DNA from: a virus
DNA length: 39,630 bases
IMG/VR virus record: IMGVR_UViG_3300031227_000147
Location: 1 to 39,630 of that record
Direction: 5' to 3' (one strand)
Part shown: positions 3,319 to 39,611 of the stretch, in pieces
How positions within the stretch are numbered: position 1 is the stretch's first letter
How the letters are laid out: each line of letters starts with the position of its first letter
Made by a program: the position numbers and the translations under genes
Notes under the pieces: generated by a model
Database searches by the model: none
Told to the model about the DNA's origin: nothing
Seen by the model: only the letters and a program-made list of their open reading frames with translations

Positions 3319-4201
3319 GATCTTCGATCCTCCCAGCTTCCACCAACTCAGTATGCTGATTGCAGAACTTCCTTGCTGCACAGTATCTACATCTTGCTAC
3401 TTTGCCTGGCCTGTGAACTATTTCATAGTCTTCACTTAAAGTTGCGCAGTGTGTTTTAGCTTCAATTTCGACTTTAAACACTTTTGTTGCTCGTTTTGCG
3501 CCCTTCTTCTGAACAGCCCATGCTTCTCCACTTGTCCACAATTCTTCATCAGTACATTCTGGCATGTCATTCTGGTCTTGTTTTGCGGTCTCTTCCAGTA
3601 TTGTTATTCTGTCTCCAATGTATTTAATCGTTTTCTCATCAGTCCACAAGTCTAAGGTCTTAATCATGATCCTGGTTTGTGGATATTCAGGATCCTCTCT
3701 TGCCTTCTTTGCACTCCAATCAGTAAAAATAAACCATATCTTTCCTTCCTGAGACACATCATACCCATTTGCCGCTGCAAGATATCTATAAATGCTCAAC
3801 TGTTTTCTGTAGTCCTCATCTCGACTTCCGAAAATAATTGTCCACACACTGGTTGTTTTAACATCTATAAGTTGCCACTTCTTTTCTGCGATCTCTTTCA
3901 AAATATCATACTTTCCGGTTATGATCTTATTCTTCACTGCCTTCTTGAGTCTCTCTTCTTGTTTGCATCCGGTCAAATTGACCTTTTCTACTGAGTCATG
4001 GATTGCGGTTCCATACCGGCTTGCTATTAAGTCCTCAACATCTATTTCCAGTTCTTCCCAATTCTGTTTTTTTAATGCATATGATCTTGGTGGTTGCATC
4101 AATGTTGTTGCACTCAGTGCGTTCTCATCGTAGTCGTATTCGTCATGTTCCAGCCATTGTACTACAAAGTCCGGGAAATCTCTTTTGTTTGTGTATTTCA
4201 T
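3308..4201 (-). CDS. RecB-family PD-(D/E)XK exonuclease, Cas4-like
   Basis: 297 aa. The full RecB nuclease signature is visible: His68 in GTAIHD, the GxxD motif with Asp99 (GKYD), IDVK with Asp113 and Lys115, and QLSIYRY with Gln134 and Tyr138. Near the C-terminus CRYC and a further Cys five residues on, plus upstream cysteines, resemble the Fe-S cluster ligands of Cas4/AddB-type nucleases. The likely role is resecting double-stranded DNA ends to give single strands for the Sak3-like annealing protein encoded two genes downstream. The start at 4201 overlaps the previous stop (ATGA). Confidence 0.85.
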   Translation of the reverse strand: MKYTNKRDFPDFVVQWLEHDEYDYDENALSATTLMQPPRSYALKKQNWEELEIDVEDLIASRYGTAIHDSVEKVNLTGCKQEERLKKAVKNKIITGKYDILKEIAEKKWQLIDVKTTSVWTIIFGSRDEDYRKQLSIYRYLAAANGYDVSQEGKIWFIFTDWSAKKAREDPEYPQTRIMIKTLDLWTDEKTIKYIGDRITILEETAKQDQNDMPECTDEELWTSGEAWAVQKKGAKRATKVFKVEIEAKTHCATLSEDYEIVHRPGKVARCRYCAARKFCNQHTELVEAGRIEDHDE

Positions 4202-4446
4202 TTCAAATCCCCCTCAGTTAAATTAAACCTTTCCATCCATCTTTTAACATCTGGATGATTGGTACAAGCCAGGGCAATAACTTGAAGGTTTGATTCTTTT
4301 GTTGGACAAAACTGATTTATCTTAATTGAAATCTCTTCTTTTATCCACTTAATCACTTCCAACCTTAACTCATCAGAATCTACTACGCTAAACGAATCAA
4401 TACTACAAGCATCAACACATAAATCCTTTAAAGTTTTTAGTTTCAT
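4198..4446 (-). CDS. Small acidic helical protein
   Basis: 82 aa, soluble, helix-rich, with scattered cysteines not in CxxC pairs. It sits between the ParB-like protein and the RecB-type nuclease, with ATGA overlaps on both sides, so it is co-translated with both. No domain was recognised. Confidence 0.65.
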   Translation of the reverse strand: MKLKTLKDLCVDACSIDSFSVVDSDELRLEVIKWIKEEISIKINQFCPTKESNLQVIALACTNHPDVKRWMERFNLTEGDLK

Positions 4447-5996
4447 TTTGATTTCCTCACTACCTTAGGAACCATTCCCTCCAGCTCATAATCAAGAAAC
4501 TCATCAATCAGTTCTCCCTTCTTTGCATGCTTGCTTGCTTCAATGAAACTTTCTTCCATTTTAAGCTCTTTCGCCAATGTTATCAGTTGATCCTTGCTAT
4601 GTAATTCCAGGAACTCTTTTGTTATCACTGTCTCTTTATCATATTTGAAACCTTCCGCAGTCATCAACATTTCCAGCTCAGCATTCTGATAACTTGACAG
4701 ATAGGCCTTGTTTAATGCCATAATTGCTTCATCCAATTTCTTTGGTGTACATGCAAGAATTTTCTTGACCTGATTAAAATCTTTAATTCCAAGTATCTTC
4801 ATTGCTTCCCGGCCATAAATGTTTGCATTAACTCCCCATCCTATTTGCGCTGCCAGTTGTCCAATTGTTACTACTCTTTGCGCCTTCGTGTTCAACTTCA
4901 GAATGCTTGGTGCTCTCTCCACTAAAAAATCATGTTTGTATATTTTGACTTTTTCCTGCAACCTTTCTTCTCTGTTCAGTTCAAGCATTTTGTCTGCTTC
5001 AGCCCTATTTTCTTCAGTTGTTTCTTTGTTTGCTTCTTTCTGGACTGCCTTCTGTTCTGCTTCAGGTATGAGACAATACACTTCTTTTTCTATATCTCCC
5101 CAATTGCTTATGTCTATCGTTACTGCATAATTTGTGTTATTGGGTAATTTTTTAACTATTTTGTTGTATTGTTCTGTCTCCCATGCGTGCACTTCATATG
5201 CTCCTGGATGCTTCTTGATTAATTCATTCCTACTATTGAATACTGTTATTCCTTTCTTTTTCAGAATCTTACGCTGCGATTCAATGTAAGCTCCCAGTTC
5301 TGCTTTGAACTTATTATTGTTCTTCAGGGTATCAGCTACTTCATTTTTTGGATTAGTTTCGATTCCTATATCATCCAATAAAGTCTTTTGTTTAGACCCG
5401 TCACTTTCTTCAGGCCTGAATTGAATGTCCATGAAATCTATTCCCATCCATCTGATCTGATCTGCAAAATTCTGCACTGTCAAGTCATACTCTTGGATAA
5501 ACTCCAGACTCTCTTTCTGCATTACTTTTGTCATTTGATTCAGTAGTAATGCATGCCCCAATTCTATCTTCTTGTTTTGAAGTGCTTTTTCTACTTCTGG
5601 CGTCAACTCCTTCAGGTTAACTCTTCGTTTCACATAATCAGCAGTTTTTCCAATTGCCTTTGCTAACTGAGGAATTGTTGCATTATTCTTATTCAGATAG
5701 TCTCCGTATGCTTGTGACTCTTCAATTGGATCCAAGTCTTTCCTTTGAATGTTTTCTATCAATTGTATTTCCATCACACTTCCTTCTTTGGTTGTGTCTA
5801 TTACATGCACCGGAACCTCTGTGATTCCTATCTCTTTTGCTGCCTGCAGTCTTCTATGTCCTGCTATTAACAAGTTATCTTTGTCAACCAGTAATGGTTG
5901 AAGAATCCCTTTTTCCTGTATGCTCGCTTTTAATTCTGTTAAGTCACCCAAGTCCTTTCGCACCTGGCCATTTGTTTGTATCTTTTCTGTTTTCAT
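4443..5996 (-). CDS. ParB-like partition/regulatory protein
   Basis: 517 aa. Residues 1-95 form the ParB/Srx fold: LTELKASIQEKGILQPLLV, the nucleotide-binding GHRRLQAA (46-53), and the ENIQRKDLDPIEE box (81-93). A helix-turn-helix follows at about 105-128 (IPQLAKAIGKTADYVKRRV). ParB proteins of this type bind CTP and centromere-like DNA. The long C-terminal half is helical and not recognised. No ParA partner was found, so it may act as a transcription factor, in virus DNA organisation, or with a host ATPase. RBS: a weak GAGGT sequence ahead of the ATG at 5996. Confidence 0.85.
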   Translation of the reverse strand: MKTEKIQTNGQVRKDLGDLTELKASIQEKGILQPLLVDKDNLLIAGHRRLQAAKEIGITEVPVHVIDTTKEGSVMEIQLIENIQRKDLDPIEESQAYGDYLNKNNATIPQLAKAIGKTADYVKRRVNLKELTPEVEKALQNKKIELGHALLLNQMTKVMQKESLEFIQEYDLTVQNFADQIRWMGIDFMDIQFRPEESDGSKQKTLLDDIGIETNPKNEVADTLKNNNKFKAELGAYIESQRKILKKKGITVFNSRNELIKKHPGAYEVHAWETEQYNKIVKKLPNNTNYAVTIDISNWGDIEKEVYCLIPEAEQKAVQKEANKETTEENRAEADKMLELNREERLQEKVKIYKHDFLVERAPSILKLNTKAQRVVTIGQLAAQIGWGVNANIYGREAMKILGIKDFNQVKKILACTPKKLDEAIMALNKAYLSSYQNAELEMLMTAEGFKYDKETVITKEFLELHSKDQLITLAKELKMEESFIEASKHAKKGELIDEFLDYELEGMVPKVVRKSK

Positions 5997-6009
5997 TTGA
6001 TTTACCTCG

Positions 6010-6204
6010 TTAGTTTTTTTGTTCGATTCTTAGTTTCAGTGTATTTATTGTTTTTTCAATATCCTTGTTGTTATGGCACTTCCAATCATTTAAAATACTT
6101 AAAACTTCTTTAAGCATTTCAGCTCTACCACATTTCACTCCACCATCAAACGCATCACTCTGAATGTCTCCTGCCATTTCCGAATCTGCCATCCTATTGT
6201 CCAT
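6010..6204 (-). CDS. Small soluble protein of unknown function
   Basis: 64 aa, with an acidic N-terminal half and a helical C-terminal half including CGRAEMLKEVLSIL. ATG at 6204 is preceded by AGAGGGAAAACA, a good Shine-Dalgarno, and overlaps the end of the SWIM-finger gene. It precedes the ParB-like gene in the same operon. Confidence 0.6.
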   Translation of the reverse strand: MDNRMADSEMAGDIQSDAFDGGVKCGRAEMLKEVLSILNDWKCHNNKDIEKTINTLKLRIEQKN

Positions 6205-6409
6205 TGTTTTCCCTCTGCTCTCTCTGGTAGTCCAATTCTGCTTTAAAAGCCTCAATATGCTTGCATTGAGCCCCTGCCTTTGCATGATGAGGACAAGTGC
6301 ACGTTATTACCCCATTTTCATAAATAACCTTGTAGAAGGCTCCAGGGTTGCTCTCACTCTCAACCAGGCCTGATGTTCTAAATTCCTTCTTAATGTCAGT
6401 TACTTTCAT
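6194..6409 (-). CDS. Small SWIM zinc finger protein
   Basis: 71 aa. The SWIM motif is complete: C37-x-C39, then C49-x-H51, set in a compact strand-strand-helix. SWIM domains bind DNA or protein. In some recombination systems they occur beside Rad51-like factors, but no such partner is seen here. ATG at 6409 is preceded by GGGGTAAAA. It ends with TAG, which shows that amber is a normal stop codon in this genome. Confidence 0.8.
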   Translation of the reverse strand: MKVTDIKKEFRTSGLVESESNPGAFYKVIYENGVITCTCPHHAKAGAQCKHIEAFKAELDYQREQRENNGQ

Positions 6410-11837: not shown

Positions 11838-12812
11838 TTAACCCCATGTTGCATCCCACCATTGAAGGAACCATCCTCTTCTATCTTCAGCTGCACTGTA
11901 TGTTCCGCCTGGAGTAGCATTTAATCCCGCGCTTTTAATCTTTTGAAGTGCATTAATATTAGCCGGACTATTTGAAACCAACTCATCTTCCCAAGGTGCC
12001 TGGTTTCCTGTAATACTCGACCACGCCTTTTGTGGAAGTCTATTCAACATAGTATCCCCTGAACCATCACCACCACCTTCCATTAACGGTTTATCTATTC
12101 CAGTATATTTTTGTAATGCCTCAATCATTGCAGTAATTGCTTGATAAGACACATATGCTGCAGCACCAATTAATACGAAATATCCTAAAGCTGTTAATAA
12201 ACTTGCTCCAACTGTAACACCACCCATCAATGTGACCAAACTTGCAACTGACGCAATCCCAGCAAGCACTGCCGGCGCAAGTGCTAACCCTGCAAGAATT
12301 CCCACAAATAAGCCAGGATGTTCTCCTGCCCATTTTCCTATCTTTTCAAGCCAAGGCCACACTTTCTTTCCAAGTGCGATTCCCCAATCAAGAAATTTCA
12401 TTGCTAATTCTCCAATTTTCTCTTTATTACTATCAACCCATACTGCGAGTTTGTCAAGTAATCCAGCCACTTTCTCAAATGCTGGAGCCAATGCCTCCCC
12501 AAGCGATCTCTGAATTTTACCAAATGAAACAGACATTTTTGCCATTGCCGGCGCAACTGCCGGGGCCTTACTTGCAATTCCAACCAGTGCTGCAACTCCT
12601 GCAACACCCATAAACAATAATTTCTTAGCAAGTTTTCCAACTGTACCTGCTACTCGCATCATATCTGAACCGAAGGACTTTCCTTGACCTTTAGTCTTTT
12701 CAAAACCTTGATTAACTCTGGAAAATCCTCGATCTATATTGCCAGTATCTAAAGTTCCTTTAATCTTCATAGAATTACTTGCTGCTCCTGCGACTCCTGC
12801 TGCTGCTACCAT
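11838..12812 (-). CDS. Tail tape measure protein (short)
   Basis: 324 aa. Ala/Gly/Lys-rich helical N-terminus (IDRGFSRVNQGFEKTKGQGKS), followed by long hydrophobic helices (FVGILAGLALAPAVLAGIAS and others) and a conserved WPWLEKIGKWAGEHPG segment. These features and the location directly after the frameshifted chaperone gene identify the tape measure protein. At about 0.15 nm per residue the tail would be near 49 nm, short for a siphovirus. ATG at 12812 overlaps the chaperone extension's TAA (TAATG). Confidence 0.85.
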   Translation of the reverse strand: MVAAAGVAGAASNSMKIKGTLDTGNIDRGFSRVNQGFEKTKGQGKSFGSDMMRVAGTVGKLAKKLLFMGVAGVAALVGIASKAPAVAPAMAKMSVSFGKIQRSLGEALAPAFEKVAGLLDKLAVWVDSNKEKIGELAMKFLDWGIALGKKVWPWLEKIGKWAGEHPGLFVGILAGLALAPAVLAGIASVASLVTLMGGVTVGASLLTALGYFVLIGAAAYVSYQAITAMIEALQKYTGIDKPLMEGGGDGSGDTMLNRLPQKAWSSITGNQAPWEDELVSNSPANINALQKIKSAGLNATPGGTYSAAEDRRGWFLQWWDATWG

Positions 12813-13416
12813 TATTTAAACCTCACTTGATTCATCAAATCCTGAACTTTTTTATTTCTATCTTTTTTCATACTTACCGCACTCTTTACATGCATGATCT
12901 CTCTAAGATCACTTATTCTGCAATTATTAAATTCTCTTGGGCTGATTCCACATTCAAATGCTATGACTTTCCACCATATGAGTTGTTGCTTAGGATCACT
13001 TATTAAAAACCCTTCCGCATTACTATACTCAATCAGCCTTGCAAGTTTTTTGTCGACTTATTATCCGGCTCATCAATTGCCTTCATTGCATTGATAAGTT
13101 TATCAAACAATCCAGGCGTCAATTTACTCAAAAACAGGTATCTTTGATCTGTTGTCAAGTCATCCCATTCTTTTTCGACGCCAATGACCTTATTAATTAT
13201 TACTATCTCGTATGGTACTGATGTAATGTTTTCAAGTTTCTTCTTATTGTACATACTCCAATTAACTTGCGGAACTTTCTTCTCCTGGTCTATTGTCATA
13301 ATGTCCTTCAGCCACTCATTCTCATCTCCACCAGTTGTTGGTTTATACTTAAATTTTCTTCCATCAACATCGATTTCTATTGGTTTTTCATCGACGAAGT
13401 CTGTTTCATATCCCAT
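12812..13416 (-). CDS. Tail assembly chaperone, -1 frameshift fusion (gpGT-like)
   Basis: Predicted 201-aa product. The first 123 codons are those of the 127-aa short form. At 13051-13045 the sequence is A AAA AAC in the correct X-XXY-YYZ phase. A -1 slip opens a frame of 77 codons (13045-12815) with no start codon near its beginning, running to TAA at 12814-12812. The extension contains LIWWKVIAFECGISPREFNN and ends in a basic helix. This is the lambda G/GT arrangement, placed as expected between tail tube and tape measure. The short form alone ends at 13033. Confidence 0.85.
13033..13416 (-). CDS. Tail assembly chaperone, short form (gpG-like)
   Basis: 127 aa read without frameshift, ending ...KSTKNLQG at TGA 13033. 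N-terminus beta (KPIEIDVDGRKFKYKPTT), then helices with WLKDIMTI and DDLTTDQRYLFLSKLTPGLF. It binds the tape measure before tube assembly in the family model. Both forms should be made in a fixed ratio. The start at 13416 follows AGGGGGAAAA. Confidence 0.85.
   Translation of the reverse strand: MGYETDFVDEKPIEIDVDGRKFKYKPTTGGDENEWLKDIMTIDQEKKVPQVNWSMYNKKKLENITSVPYEIVIINKVIGVEKEWDDLTTDQRYLFLSKLTPGLFDKLINAMKAIDEPDNKSTKNLQG
13045..13051 (-). promoter_or_regulatory. A AAA AAC slippery heptamer for -1 frameshifting
   Basis: Zero-frame codons here are ACA AAA AAC, so the heptamer is in the standard phase. The zero-frame stop follows four codons later (13035-13033). CTTGCAAG, a short palindrome, follows directly. 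No strong downstream pseudoknot is obvious by eye. Confidence 0.85.
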
Positions 13417-13425
13417 TTTTTCCCC

Positions 13426-14358
13426 CTAATATGTTGTTATATCATCTCGTGCCACTGCGCTTGTGAATCCATCTGCTGCCCAGACTACATCCACATTTGT
13501 GACTCCTTCAAGATTTGTACTTGCAACTGCTCCAAGCACATAAAACCCTGATGCAAAAGTGAAAAGCATTTGATCGTCTCCACTTCCATCTTTATCAAAT
13601 AATAAAGTGTTTGAACCTGCAACTACGGTTCCTGCATTCCAATGATCAAAGAATGTTTTATCTTTAATATTTACATTCATCCTTCCTGTAATTCTGAATG
13701 TCTTTGGAATCGGTTCTCCCAATAAGTCATCATACGAAGTATTGCAATACCTGGAGTCGTTTTCATCGATTCCATTATCTATTGTGAATTCTCCATTATT
13801 AACTTCTTTAATTTCTGTTCCACCAAGTACCCATTTAACTGACCTATACTGAAATGGTTCTTTAGTAATGTTTCCTGCACTAATTGTTGTTACACTACTT
13901 CCTTGACTTACATCTTGTCCAACACATGAAAGTGCTATTGTTATAAATCCTTCAGTCCCTTCCCCTGTTGCTTTCTGAAAGTTGATCGTTGCTGATTTAA
14001 CTGCATTTCCAATCACTGTCAAAACATTCGAAGTAGTTGCTCGTTTTGCCCATTCAAGTTTATAAGATAGAATAGTGTTTCTCATTGCGAATGTATGAAT
14101 TTTAGGCGTTGTTCCAGTATCTGTTGATGCCATTAAATATTTAAACCATCTCCAATTAACTGGCACAAAAGTCATACTATATGGTAATGTTTGCGGTCCA
14201 ACCACTCTTCCCTGAATTAATCTGTTATCCGCACCTGCAGTTAATTTTTCTTGCCAACCTTTAGCCCAATCCGGTTCTATTGTACAATTAAGTCCTACAA
14301 TTTCTCCACCAGTCATGGTTCCACCAGTTGCCCAAGCTGTTTCAACTATCCAACTCAT
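13426..14358 (-). CDS. Major tail tube protein
   Basis: 310 aa, beta-rich with Gly/Thr-rich loops. The segment after WIVETAWATGG and the FRITGRMNVNIKD strand fit siphovirus tube proteins. It lies directly before the chaperone pair, the standard place for the tube gene. I chose the ATG at 14358 (MSWIVE) because GAGAGCGA precedes it; an in-frame extension towards 14427 would run into the HNH gene end. The stop is TAG. It was probably cotranscribed with the tail terminator before the HNH gene came between them. Confidence 0.8.
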   Translation of the reverse strand: MSWIVETAWATGGTMTGGEIVGLNCTIEPDWAKGWQEKLTAGADNRLIQGRVVGPQTLPYSMTFVPVNWRWFKYLMASTDTGTTPKIHTFAMRNTILSYKLEWAKRATTSNVLTVIGNAVKSATINFQKATGEGTEGFITIALSCVGQDVSQGSSVTTISAGNITKEPFQYRSVKWVLGGTEIKEVNNGEFTIDNGIDENDSRYCNTSYDDLLGEPIPKTFRITGRMNVNIKDKTFFDHWNAGTVVAGSNTLLFDKDGSGDDQMLFTFASGFYVLGAVASTNLEGVTNVDVVWAADGFTSAVARDDITTY

Positions 14359-14402
14359 TCGCTCTCTTTTTCCTAAAAGGAATTCTGAAAAAACTATTTT
14401 AA

Positions 14403-14861
14403 TCACCTCTCCATATTTTTTCCCCATTTACCATCTGGGAAGTGTATTTTATTATGACACTTGTCGCAGATAGCAATGAGATTGTTTGTTTGATTATTTT
14501 TTCTATTTTTGTCTTTATGATGAATGAGTATCCTTTTTTCAGACTCTCCACACATTTCGCATTTATTTGTTTTAATTTTTCCATAGTATCCTCCATCAAT
14601 GTAATTATACGGTTTTTTGCTACTTTCTGACATCTGCTTTTTAGTTTTTTCACTATGCTTTTTTCCGAGCATACCTTTGTGGTTTGCTTTAATTCCTGCG
14701 ATTCTTTTTTGTTCTGTTTCTTCATTGTGTTTATGTCCTTTTTCAAATTGTCCAGCTTTATTGTGCAGTCCTTTGCACTTTTTTGAACAATATTTTCTTT
14801 TTCTCCAGTCTTGAGCTTCAAACTCAATTCCACATCCTTTACATTCGTATTTTTGTATCAT
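14403..14861 (-). CDS. HNH endonuclease with zinc finger and NUMOD3 motif
   Basis: 152 aa. The N-terminal treble-clef finger has CKGCGIEFEAQ then RKYCSKKC. NUMOD3 follows (MLGKKHSEKTKKQMSES), the DNA-binding motif of homing nucleases, and then an HNH core: CEMCG, ILIHHKDKNRKNNQTNNL, CDKCHNKIH. It is inserted between the tail terminator and tail tube genes and has its own promoter. The ATG at 14861 lies 26 nt from the TATA centre with no Shine-Dalgarno, so the mRNA may be leaderless, an archaeal trait. A second HNH is at 1831-2304. Confidence 0.9.
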   Translation of the reverse strand: MIQKYECKGCGIEFEAQDWRKRKYCSKKCKGLHNKAGQFEKGHKHNEETEQKRIAGIKANHKGMLGKKHSEKTKKQMSESSKKPYNYIDGGYYGKIKTNKCEMCGESEKRILIHHKDKNRKNNQTNNLIAICDKCHNKIHFPDGKWGKNMER

Positions 14862-28090: not shown

Positions 28091-28119
28091 TATTTAAAGT
28101 CTTTTATGGTTCAGCATTA
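28091..28119 (-). promoter_or_regulatory. Late-type promoter L1 (protease-capsid genes)
   Basis: Minus strand TGCTGAACCATAAAA followed by GACTTTAAATA. The TATA box is TTTAAATA (28098-28091). The element overlaps the portal gene's stop codon. Predicted start about 26 nt downstream, at the protease gene's first ATGs. Confidence 0.8.
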
Positions 28120-30609
28120 ATTCATATCCACCGAATCATCCGGATGAAACACCCAACTACTTCTACAATTCACATGCGCCGGAGGCGTTGGCCCACTCCA
28201 TTCTCCCTTTGGATCCACAAAATCAGCATTAATATCTACTTGTTGCCCATCTAATCTCTTACACAATAAACTGGTTCGATCATCAAAGTGTGCAGAGTAT
28301 TCTTTCTTTCCTGGAGTTCCACTCTTTTGAAATCCATGTAATCTTCCCACGTTTGCTGCCCTATTACTTTCAGTCCTGGCAATCATAGTAACTCGATTAT
28401 TTCCTACATCAAAAACTTTAGTAATCTCTGCCTTCAATTCCTCAAGCGGAGTTCCATCCATGAATCCTCTTTGCATTACACCTCTCAACTTTTCTGCAAT
28501 GTCATCATTCATTCCCTTGATGTTATCATAAGTATAATTAGACATATAATCGATTGCGTTTGGATCTGCTTTAATATTAATGTTTAATTTCTTCTCTGCC
28601 TCATCCCAACCCTTCATATAATTATTTTTTATAATAGCTTGAACTAATGGTTTAATTGCCACAATTCCTAATAATGACTTTAACCTTTTTACGATATCAT
28701 TAATTCCTTTAACTTCTTGAATTTGGTTCTTACCCATCTCTGATGCCAAAATCGTCTTTATTTCATCCTCGTTTTGTCTATTAATAAACATCATTGCTTT
28801 CTCAAGTCGGCTATAACCGGTTGGTCTTTCTCCTGGTTTAAGAATTAAAGGATTATCTGTTGGTTGAGCTTTTTTCTCTTTTTTCTTTTTTTTTTTAACT
28901 TCGTCTTCCATTCCTGAACCATCTGCTCTGCCTTTTCCTGGCCCTGCACCCGCCCCCTGTGGTCCAGTCTTATCAGGAACGTGTCCGCCTGGTCCTGCCT
29001 TGTTTTCATCCTCATCCTCATCCTCGTCTTCATCCTCATCTTCTTCCGCATCCGGATCCGGTGTTGGTTTTTCAGGAGGTCCACGAAGTGATTTAGTATC
29101 TTCTTGAGGTTTTTTAGGATTCTCTGCTGCATCCTCTCGCTCCCCATACCTTTCTTCTTGACTATCCATGTTTGGTTGTCCTGGCATTCCACCCATATTA
29201 AAACTATTCTCAGGAGTCATCCAATCCTTTGGCGCATCATCACCCCACTCCAACTCATCCAAGCCCTCATCAATTCTGATTTCATTAATAGTTTTTAATC
29301 CGGATTCTGTTTGTAACTTGTATAATTCGTATTTAGCTTTTTCCTCATCAACATCAAACTTTTTAAACTTAAACACATACTTTGGCTTCTCTATTGTCTT
29401 ACCATCTTTTGTTGCTACAGTTGCAACATACTCAAACTCTGAAATTATGCCCATGTTAAAATTGGCTTCTAAATTTCTTAACATTGGATTAATAGCTTTT
29501 TTCCTAAAAACTTTACTTTGAACGATTTGATTTGCTGCTCCAGCTGCATCCTCAGTATAACCAAGTTCTGTTGCAGTTACTCCAAACGAAGCCCACACCA
29601 TTTTAGTGTACCACTTCTGTTTTTCTATAACTTGCATTTCACTTGAAGAGAATTCTATCCTTTGAAATGTTGGACTCTTATTCACAATTGGAACCTTATT
29701 CATGATCTTCTTCCAACTTCCAAACTCATCCTTTTTCCTTTGAGTTTCAAACCATTGATCCTTAAAAGCTTTTAATTCATCCGCATCTGCTTCATCAAGC
29801 CCTATAATTCCCTTTGGAACATTATTATCATTATAATATTCCAAATCACTTTCTATCATATACATAAGCATCTGCAAACTCTTTGCAAGTGTTTGTACTG
29901 GACTATAACCATAGTGATCATCTGTTCGTTTCATTTGTTCAATCCAGATAATCTCTCGCTTTCCGAATGGTACTGGAATTGGTCCTGCTATCCATCCATA
30001 TTGGAAATAAGCTGCCTTTTCTCTACTACTCATTGCCGTAATTTCAGTATAAGGATTTACTAATTCAATACCCACATTATCATCCACAATCCTGTTAGGC
30101 ATAATAATATCATCTCTAACAGTATACATTCCATGAACATCAGGATTCTTAGTAAATGTTGCACCATCCCTGGCCACAATTTCCACCATTTCCTCTTTCA
30201 TATTAAAAACTTTATTTAATACTCCACTATTCACTTCCAATATATCTCTTACTGGCATTCTAATAAATACTTCCTCAAATGATTCAGCATTAGTATTTGG
30301 ATTTAGAAAAAAGTTTTTGATATGCTCCATTTCTGCTTCATCAGCTTGCTCTTCCATACCATCATTTGGAATAATATCCCACTCAATGCTTGCAAGCTCG
30401 TTTATGATTGTCTTAATGCACATTTCAACATATGGTGTTTGTGCTAAGTATCGCACATATGCCATGTTTGCGAATCTTGGATATCCGAATGGTGGCTTGT
30501 ATAAGAATTTAGGAATGTATGCTTTATTAATTCCATCTCTTGTTGCTTCATTTATAGTGTCTACAGCTATTACAGACTTTTTTTTAAACCAATTATTTAG
30601 TGATGCCAT
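28117..30609 (-). CDS. Portal protein fused to MuF-type head protein
   Basis: 830 aa. The portal fold occupies about 1-480: PYVEMCIKTIINELASIEWD, YSPVQTLAKSLQMLMYMIE, then the C-terminal clip and wing. A long acidic-basic linker follows (about 500-600), with an Asp/Glu run and KKKKKKEKK. The C-terminal 110 residues are MuF: ARTESNRAANVGRLHGFQKSG, HFDDRTSLLCKRLDGQQVD, PPAHVNCRSSW. In most phages these are separate genes. The family role is DNA passage and head maturation. Start 30609, with L3 upstream. Confidence 0.9.
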   Translation of the reverse strand: MASLNNWFKKKSVIAVDTINEATRDGINKAYIPKFLYKPPFGYPRFANMAYVRYLAQTPYVEMCIKTIINELASIEWDIIPNDGMEEQADEAEMEHIKNFFLNPNTNAESFEEVFIRMPVRDILEVNSGVLNKVFNMKEEMVEIVARDGATFTKNPDVHGMYTVRDDIIMPNRIVDDNVGIELVNPYTEITAMSSREKAAYFQYGWIAGPIPVPFGKREIIWIEQMKRTDDHYGYSPVQTLAKSLQMLMYMIESDLEYYNDNNVPKGIIGLDEADADELKAFKDQWFETQRKKDEFGSWKKIMNKVPIVNKSPTFQRIEFSSSEMQVIEKQKWYTKMVWASFGVTATELGYTEDAAGAANQIVQSKVFRKKAINPMLRNLEANFNMGIISEFEYVATVATKDGKTIEKPKYVFKFKKFDVDEEKAKYELYKLQTESGLKTINEIRIDEGLDELEWGDDAPKDWMTPENSFNMGGMPGQPNMDSQEERYGEREDAAENPKKPQEDTKSLRGPPEKPTPDPDAEEDEDEDEDEDEDENKAGPGGHVPDKTGPQGAGAGPGKGRADGSGMEDEVKKKKKKEKKAQPTDNPLILKPGERPTGYSRLEKAMMFINRQNEDEIKTILASEMGKNQIQEVKGINDIVKRLKSLLGIVAIKPLVQAIIKNNYMKGWDEAEKKLNINIKADPNAIDYMSNYTYDNIKGMNDDIAEKLRGVMQRGFMDGTPLEELKAEITKVFDVGNNRVTMIARTESNRAANVGRLHGFQKSGTPGKKEYSAHFDDRTSLLCKRLDGQQVDINADFVDPKGEWSGPTPPAHVNCRSSWVFHPDDSVDMN

Positions 30610-33887: not shown

Positions 33888-34767
33888 TTTGTAGCAAAAG
33901 CGCAAGTCTAACTTTTTCAGCAACTCTCTCAATCACATGTGTTGTGACTGCATTGCCCATCCTTGCAAATCGTTCCCTCATTGATACTTCATACTTATTT
34001 CCATCTTCATCCATTCCATATTTGGTCCAATCTTTTGGGAATCCTTGAAGTTTTTCTGCTTCATTAATTGTGATTGATCTATCTCTTTCACCTATCAATA
34101 TGTTCTCAGCTGAACTCTTTGTGAGCGTTGGACTCACTCCTGTTTCACTGTAGACCATACTGGTTTGTTGGAACTTTTCATCAGGTTTCTGAACCATTCT
34201 AATAGTTCCTTTTGTTTCTTCCCTAATAGGAAAGATCCAGTTATTGGGTGTTCCTCTAAGATGTCCGATAATGATGATTCTTTCTCGATTTTGTGGGATT
34301 CCGAAATGTTTGCTGTTAAGCACTTGCCATTCTGCATCATACCCCAATTCATCCAAAGTTTGGAGGATAGTGGTAATTGTTCGCCCTTCCTCATGAGAGA
34401 GTAACCCTTTAACGTTCTCAAAGAATAAAATCTTAGGTCTTTTGCATTTAGCAATACGCGCAAGGTCAAAAAAAAGCGTGCCCCTTGTATCTTTAAAGCC
34501 CATTCTTTTTCCAGCAATGCTGAAACTTTGGCAAGGAAATCCGCCACATAAGATGTCGAAGTCTGGTAGTTCTTTTTCATTGATTTTTGTAATATCTCCA
34601 TAGTTTTTTACCCCTTTAAATTTGTATCTTAATATATCACATGCTTGTTTTTGCATTTCTGATTGTCCTACACAGATTGCTCCTGGTATAGCTTTTTGTA
34701 TGCCTAATTCAAATCCACCAACACCTGAAAAGGTGCTCATGTACTTTATTGATTTATTGCTTGCCAT
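33880..34767 (-). CDS. C5-cytosine DNA methyltransferase
   Basis: 295 aa with the ordered m5C motifs: FSGVGGFELG (I), GGFPCQSFS (IV, Cys79), FENVKG (VI), QNRERI (VIII), and MGNAVTTHV (X). Target-recognition region between VIII and X is short. The enzyme adds a methyl group to C5 of cytosine within an unknown site, likely to protect virus DNA from host restriction. No cognate endonuclease gene lies alongside, so it is an orphan. The start overlaps the ParB-MTase stop. Confidence 0.93.
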   Translation of the reverse strand: MASNKSIKYMSTFSGVGGFELGIQKAIPGAICVGQSEMQKQACDILRYKFKGVKNYGDITKINEKELPDFDILCGGFPCQSFSIAGKRMGFKDTRGTLFFDLARIAKCKRPKILFFENVKGLLSHEEGRTITTILQTLDELGYDAEWQVLNSKHFGIPQNRERIIIIGHLRGTPNNWIFPIREETKGTIRMVQKPDEKFQQTSMVYSETGVSPTLTKSSAENILIGERDRSITINEAEKLQGFPKDWTKYGMDEDGNKYEVSMRERFARMGNAVTTHVIERVAEKVRLALLLQNE

Positions 34768-35957
34768 TGTATATCATCTGACTCTCTTACTGGTTGTTTT
34801 TCAGTAAAGTTTGCCCATCTTGTCAGTATTACATCAACATACTTTGGATCTATCTCCATTAAGTTACACTTCCTTCCTGAAATTTCACATGCCATCAAAG
34901 TAGTTCCTGATCCGCCACACGGTTCCAATACAATCTCATTTGGTCTGCTTGAGTTCTTGATCATCCTTTTGCATAATTCCACTGGTTTCTGTGTTACATG
35001 AAGGATGTCCTTACTCTGATCTCTTTTCTCTTTAATTAGATCACTGTCCTTCCTGATCTCTGCAATCATCTGAATCAATTCATCCTTCTTCAAATCATTA
35101 AGGTTCTCAATTGTAGCATTTAATATAATGGTTGTATGACTTCTATCTCCGAACCATCCTGGAGCAACTTTCTTTCCGCAATACAATATTGGTTCATGTG
35201 ATATATGATAATCTGCCATTCCTAAGATATGCCCTTTCTCCCAGATTAATGTTTGTTTTACCTTAAATCCTGCTTCAACAACTTCCAATCCTGCGCTACA
35301 AGTATATAATGCTGAATTCTTAATTGTACATTTGAATACATTTGTAAATATTTGCTTTAGATCAGTATCCCCTGGATCAGTCCAACACATAACTGCAAGA
35401 TCCTTTCCCATTAACTCTTGCATATCTTCTTCTTTAGAACTATCTCCACACATTACTCTATGATCCCCAAGAATATACACTTCCCCTGGTTTACTCTTTG
35501 GAACATCTGGTATCTTTGGAGTTCTATCAATATTCTTTTCCTTTTCTACTACAACATTCCTGGCCAGTATTTCATCAAGGATTGGTTCATCAAATCCGCT
35601 AAGTGTCAAGTCTATTCCCCTTTCTTCTAACTCTTTTAATAAATCCAGTAATTTGTCATCATCCCATTCACCGCTAATTTCGTTTAATGCAATATTCAAA
35701 AGGGACTCTTTCTCCTCAGTCATATCAACATAAGTTACTGGAACTTCCTTTAACTTCAGCTTCTTTGCTGCTTCTACTCTCTGATGCCCACCTACTATAA
35801 TATTATATCTTTCTTTATTCTTATTTACGATAATAGGATCAACAAAACCAAACTCTTTAATACTCCTGGTTAACTTCTGAAGCTCCCTCTTTGTTATCTT
35901 CCTCGGATTCTTCTCGTTCAGTTTCAGGTCCTTTATTGCTATATTTACTATTTCCAT
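34746..35957 (-). CDS. ParB-N6/N4 methyltransferase fusion with lost catalytic motif
   Basis: 403 aa. Residues 1-130 are ParB/Srx: NEKNPRKITKRELQKL, VGGHQRVEAAKKL, LLNIALNEISGEWD. The methyltransferase part starts at GDHRVMCGDS (164-173). Motif I-like LEPCGGSGTTLMACE is at 344-358, with EIDPKYVDVIL after. The usual DPPY is replaced by TDPGD (193-197), and about 25 residues that normally follow it are missing; a helical insert lies at 276-319. Methylation is therefore doubtful. Start set by GGGGGAAAAAAAG before ATG 35957. Phage relatives are beta-class enzymes. Confidence 0.85.
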   Translation of the reverse strand: MEIVNIAIKDLKLNEKNPRKITKRELQKLTRSIKEFGFVDPIIVNKNKERYNIIVGGHQRVEAAKKLKLKEVPVTYVDMTEEKESLLNIALNEISGEWDDDKLLDLLKELEERGIDLTLSGFDEPILDEILARNVVVEKEKNIDRTPKIPDVPKSKPGEVYILGDHRVMCGDSSKEEDMQELMGKDLAVMCWTDPGDTDLKQIFTNVFKCTIKNSALYTCSAGLEVVEAGFKVKQTLIWEKGHILGMADYHISHEPILYCGKKVAPGWFGDRSHTTIILNATIENLNDLKKDELIQMIAEIRKDSDLIKEKRDQSKDILHVTQKPVELCKRMIKNSSRPNEIVLEPCGGSGTTLMACEISGRKCNLMEIDPKYVDVILTRWANFTEKQPVRESDDIQWQAINQ

Positions 35958-36036
35958 CTTTTTTTCCCCCATGTATTAGAAACTCTTCAGCTTGTTCAGA
36001 GTCTTCTTTCCTGTTTTTTGTCTCAACCTTAATCAT
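35857..36036 (-). CDS. Overlapping small acidic protein (uncertain)
   Basis: 59 aa, highly charged (Lys/Glu, then Glu/Asp-rich end). ATG at 36036 overlaps the upstream TGA and has a strong AAGGAGAGCGATCA signal, so initiation is likely. It overlaps the first 101 nt of the ParB-methyltransferase gene in another frame. It may mainly couple translation to that gene. No domain. Confidence 0.45.
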   Translation of the reverse strand: MIKVETKNRKEDSEQAEEFLIHGGKKDGNSKYSNKGPETEREESEEDNKEGASEVNQEY

Positions 36037-39458: not shown

Positions 39459-39611
39459 TTTTCACCTCTTTTATTTTCTAACCTTTGCAACCTACTTCGT
39501 TCATTAAACTTGGCTCGATTATCCCAGTAATACTTCTTTCTATACTCTGCATCCTTCAGAAGAATACATTCCTTGTGATACTTAGCATGTTTGGCCCGGT
39601 TAGTAATAGGT
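39455..39611 (-). CDS. Junction-spanning small protein (3' part, right copy)
   Basis: The right end repeats the 3' part of the gene that starts at 182. Bases 39485-39455 are unique and give its last residues, ...LENKRGEK, then TGA overlapping the next start. Upstream of 39611 it runs into adapter, so the N-terminus is found only at the left end. Confidence 0.75.
39486..39611. repeat. Right copy of 126-bp terminal repeat
   Basis: Identical to 1-126. See the left copy. Confidence 0.95.

Follow-up and report, generated by a model that had tools for sequence, protein, structure and literature searches.

Comparative evidence for a lambda-type −1 frameshift in the tail assembly chaperone gene of a virus with a probable archaeal host

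Organization of the tail gene locus

We analysed a stretch of viral DNA of 39,630 nucleotides (IMG/VR record IMGVR_UViG_3300031227_000147), referred to below as the window. The tail genes considered here lie on the minus strand and comprise the following features, with the grounds for each in brackets.

13426..14427, minus strand: tail tube protein (Phage_tube_2), upstream of G (Pfam 2e-10)
13033..13416, minus strand: zero-frame ORF, G-like tail assembly chaperone, 127 aa (ORF call; predicted fold; dN/dS 0.14)
13045..13051, minus strand: slippery heptamer A AAA AAC (in-phase reading; unchanged across the window and its 11 distinct close relatives)
13033..13035, minus strand: zero-frame stop TGA, the fourth codon past AAC (sequence)
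12812..13045, minus strand: T extension in the −1 frame, 77 codons plus TAA stop (dN/dS 0.16; third-position signature in the −1 frame)
12815..13416, minus strand: predicted GT fusion, 201 aa (from a putative −1 slip at 13045-13051; full-length alignment in relatives)
11838..12812, minus strand: probable short tape measure protein, 324 aa, starting in the T stop as TAATG (position; PHROG 1.1e-5)

The 3′ end of the G ORF reads, in codons, ACA AAA AAC TTG CAA GGC TGA, placing the heptamer in phase with the zero-frame stop four codons on, exactly as the first-pass annotation had described it. The −1 frame entered after a slip runs for 77 codons, CTT...AAA (13045-12815), followed by a TAA that overlaps the ATG of the next ORF as TAATG at 12812. 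This frame had been described as lacking an early start codon, and its earliest ATG, GTG or TTG indeed lies at codon 51 of 77. It had also been said to end at the start of the tape measure gene; the overlap is exact, while the 324-aa ORF is a probable tape measure protein mainly by position, with a weak match to the PHROG 'lytic tail protein' (1.1e-5). The order tail tube, G, T and 324-aa ORF fits the placement of G/GT between tube and tape measure genes.

The motif AAAAAAC occurs 13 times on the minus strand of the window, two of them in phase and at most six codons from the end of a long ORF. The copy at 6013-6019 was considered as a frameshift site and rejected, its −1 frame closing after five codons. 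From base composition, one open frame of 76 codons would arise by chance with a probability of about 0.002, and we regard the heptamer and open frame shared by 12 of 12 sequences (see below) as more telling than this figure.

Further along, the window encodes an SU10-type capsid protein, a terminase and a portal protein with a Mu F-like domain, the last as a single 830-aa ORF (28117-30609) in which the portal is fused to a Phage_Mu_F domain. An HNH/NUMOD3-type homing endonuclease ORF (14403-14861) overlaps the start of the tail tube gene. At 34746-35972, a ParB_N domain is joined to an N6/N4 DNA methylase, adjoining a C5 cytosine methylase and a PAPS reductase-like gene. The first 126 bases recur at 39486-39611, and the genome is therefore probably circular, circularly permuted or terminally redundant, with a length of about 39.5 kb. 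The last 19 bases, AATGATACGGCGACCACCG, resemble the Illumina P5 adapter, an assembly artefact.

Conservation of the slip site and selection on both frames

With G, the tail tube and the GT fusion as queries, viral contigs yielded 12 distinct close sequences including the window, the 11 relatives being 56-72% identical over the fusion, which aligns over its full length. All 12 carry A AAA AAC in phase together with an open, similar −1 frame, and the proposed alignment of relatives thus bore out both elements. The zero-frame stop follows the heptamer directly in nine of the 12 and after three codons in the other three, with all three stop codons represented.

Codon-substitution statistics, likewise proposed as a check, agreed with a coding extension. 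Median pairwise dN/dS came to about 0.14 in G and about 0.16 in T, values that are rough, as dS is near saturation and finite for about half of the pairs. On these sequence statistics, the T extension is under purifying selection. Read in the −1 frame, T showed mean differences of 0.26, 0.20 and 0.50 at codon positions 1, 2 and 3, and in sliding windows the third-position-like phase moved from the zero frame to the −1 frame at the heptamer.

The slip site itself showed a further constraint. Among 52 columns of G with at least three types of first two bases, the third base was invariant in one only, namely the first A of the heptamer, which is borne by the codons GTA, ACA, ATA, TTA and GCA; because the sequences are related, this result should be read as a ranking rather than a p-value. 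At other positions of these genes AAA and AAG occur 180 and 139 times and AAC and AAT 52 and 76 times, whereas AAG and AAT never occur at the slip site.

Structure prediction agreed with the assignment of G. Its AlphaFold model (pLDDT 81) matched viral tail assembly chaperones in BFVD (E 1.6e-4 and 3.4e-4, probability 1.0), and the best solved structure in the PDB was YqbN (3klu; probability 0.98, 13% identity, E 0.04). The predicted G model thus matches a tail assembly chaperone fold. For T (pLDDT 78), no significant family or fold match was obtained; its top fold hit, itself not significant, and one of the hits of G are annotated as 'uncultured archaeal virus'.

Distant homologues and a second tail module

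Ten distant homologues were assembled: a profile built from 15 fusions recovered seven further viral records, archaeal MAGs contributed two homologues and a capsid locus one. Their slip sites read A AAA AAC in L116, L118, L123 and L125, A AAA AAT in L124, A AAA AAG in L128 and A AAA AAA in L094, L126, L127 and L129, the last being a weak member whose T was placed by eye and whose following ORF is not a tape measure. Over all 22 homologues, the zero-frame stop lies directly after the heptamer in 15. The first-pass annotation had named as refuting evidence relatives that keep the chaperone with a closed −1 frame or an altered heptamer; no case of a kept chaperone with a closed −1 frame was found, and last-base changes in the distant homologues always give A AAA AAN. 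Searches of genome contigs with the GT fusion profile, and of 50,697 phage records by tblastn with the tail tube and the GT fusion, gave no match.

We inspected eight stretches of long capsid-family records without a GT match as possible counterexamples. Six of these eight, and likewise L099, proved to have a second tail module, which brings an A-run site of its own. In these seven records of the same capsid family (L099 and L137-L142), a dissimilar G/T pair follows the same plan, with an A-run −1 site before an ORF of 348-417 aa; one G of this module matches a PHROG XkdN-like family at 1e-5. In the other two (L136 and L143), no chaperone pair was found in the stretch examined.

Probable programmed frameshifting and alternative explanations

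We interpret the G/T pair as a lambda-type G/GT programmed −1 ribosomal frameshift, with a probability of about 0.9 on the comparative evidence. Such a site in a tail chaperone gene was the central claim of the first-pass annotation, and the conserved heptamer, the coding −1 frame and the chaperone fold uphold it. Under this interpretation, most ribosomes would read G through AAA AAC and terminate at TGA, while a minority, on reaching A AAA AAC, would slip by one base in the −1 direction, the Lys and Asn tRNAs re-pairing on AAA AAA, and would enter the T frame to produce the 201-aa GT fusion. By analogy with lambda, G and GT would probably act as chaperones while tail tube subunits assemble around the tape measure protein. 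The heptamer, its phase, the coding −1 frame, the chaperone fold and the gene order are shown by the comparison, and we infer the ribosomal nature of the slippage, its efficiency, the G:GT ratio, the role in assembly and the archaeal host.

Possible stimulators of the slip were also examined. Among pseudoknot-free folds, RNAalifold on the 12 close sequences found no conserved downstream structure near the site (−1.4 kcal/mol), and no consensus stem-loop was found 5-9 nt after the heptamer. Single-sequence z-scores for the 86 bases downstream ranged from 0.2 to −2.6 in the close clade. No Shine-Dalgarno-like stimulator was evident by eye upstream of the heptamer. In the SEA-PHAGES set, the mean distance between frameshift site and stop is 26 nt (PMC10274946).

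Transcriptional slippage on the A-run, by which mRNAs with an altered number of A would encode GT and the ribosome would not shift, is improbable. Runs of about nine or more A in L094, L116, L118, L123, L125 and L127 are long enough for polymerase slippage, but in the window and in every close relative the run is exactly six A long and ends at a C. Six A is short for productive transcriptional slippage as known from bacteria, and the in-phase tandem-slip heptamer explains the close relatives without further assumptions. Tandem-slip −1 frameshifting is the simplest account.

We consider it highly improbable that T is a separate gene with its own start inside or behind G, reached for example by coupling or reinitiation. 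T does overlap the end of G, and an early ATG is present in the −1 frame of L116, L118 and L123; the first ATG, GTG or TTG of the window, however, comes only at codon 51 of 77, start positions vary among relatives, and conservation of T residues sets in at the slip site. A separate gene would also leave the invariant wobble A before AAAAAC unexplained. An assembly error or decayed gene, conceivable for a single metagenome contig with an adapter-like end of 19 bases, is already refuted by the relatives, the same arrangement recurring in 22 distinct homologues from many records and in the second tail module, with purifying selection on both frames.

Host of the viruses

A search of 84,980 genomes with the capsid profile returned four MAG contigs, assigned to Woesearchaeota, Nanoarchaeota, an 'archaeon' of a small-genome phylum and WOR-3. 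The three archaeal bins contain ribosomal S19e and lack the bacterial RRF, and the WOR-3 bin shows the reverse. Because the Nanoarchaeota contig is a circular virus, it represents a binning link and not a provirus; no integrated provirus was found among the four MAG contigs with capsid relatives. The MCP profile returned only the already-known MAGs from 371 genomes of the phylum of the Nanoarchaeota MAG, 147 of the WOR-3 phylum and 34 of the GLR112 phylum. Tailed proviruses of Woesearchaeales have been described (PMC11705971).

Among isolates, only the haloarchaeal virus HHTV-2 matches most of the capsid protein, and two records of bacterial type reach slightly better E-values but cover less of it. 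Haloarchaeal viruses are among the best matches for the portal and terminase. For the Sak annealing protein, the best matches are bacterial (lactococcal) phages. The archaeal host suggested by the first-pass annotation is thus indirectly favoured by three of the four MAG contigs with capsid relatives, and the Sak protein points the other way. We consider an archaeal host probable, and a DPANN host slightly favoured.

The Nanoarchaeota-binned virus (L109) carries two tRNA genes (Thr and Val; 4174-4332), which as host markers gave weak matches in archaeal and bacterial phyla alike. Its large ORF upstream of the portal (4388-6358), perhaps a terminase, contains an intein splicing domain (Pfam 8.6e-10).

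Relation to known systems and implications

The lambda slip site is G GGA AAG, whereas the sites described here are A AAA AAC or another A AAA AAN. The abutting stop, present in 15 of 22 homologues, also sets these viruses apart from lambda, and no sequence similarity was found. What the two share is a small chaperone gene, flanked by those for tail tube and tape measure, in which a −1 slip near the end gives a C-terminally extended fusion (PMC5009743). Frameshifted tail chaperones are widespread in phages. The YqbN/XkdN-like prophage tail chaperones come close by structure and profile, YqbN being the best solved-structure match of G and the XkdN-like family matching a G of the second module.

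Archaeal precedents are closer. Two reports (PMC5009743, PMC8211752) give predicted −1 sites in the g-t genes of the siphoviruses HVTV-1, HCTV-1, HCTV-2 and HCTV-5, and for HCTV-2 the site A_AAA_AAC, identical to the heptamer of the window. The hosts of these four viruses are cultured haloarchaea, whereas those considered here are uncultured and putatively of DPANN type. Hardycor1 is likewise an archaeal virus with a chaperone pair before the tape measure gene and a classical −1 site, but differs in its G GGA AAT heptamer and halophilic host (PMC7911831). In Saccharolobus solfataricus, −1 frameshifting in fucA1 at the near-identical A AAA AAT was studied experimentally, although this gene encodes a cellular fucosidase and has rare codons as well as a putative stem-loop (PMC8211752). 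The first-pass annotation had presented use of A AAA AAC by an archaeal ribosome as little described; given HCTV-2, the other haloarchaeal −1 sites and the fucosidase A AAA AAT (PMC5009743, PMC8211752, PMC7911831), this novelty was overstated. The arrangement is real, conserved and ordinary in kind, and its value lies in the host group and the comparative set.

We tentatively entertain a broader reading, for which the case falls a little short of balanced, that a large family of DPANN tailed viruses depends on −1 slips at A AAA AAN sites, mostly abutting the stop and without conserved downstream structure, in two tail modules. If this reading is true, programmed −1 frameshifting would be carried out by DPANN ribosomes, with the abutting stop perhaps assisting. 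Through the analysis, comparative evidence for frameshifted tail chaperones, marked by a clear signature at the codon level, now reaches viruses probably infecting uncultured small archaea. It also provides about 29 natural sites that differ in the base closing the heptamer, in how long the A-run is and in how far away the stop lies, a set that may help to examine what archaeal ribosomes require for slipping.
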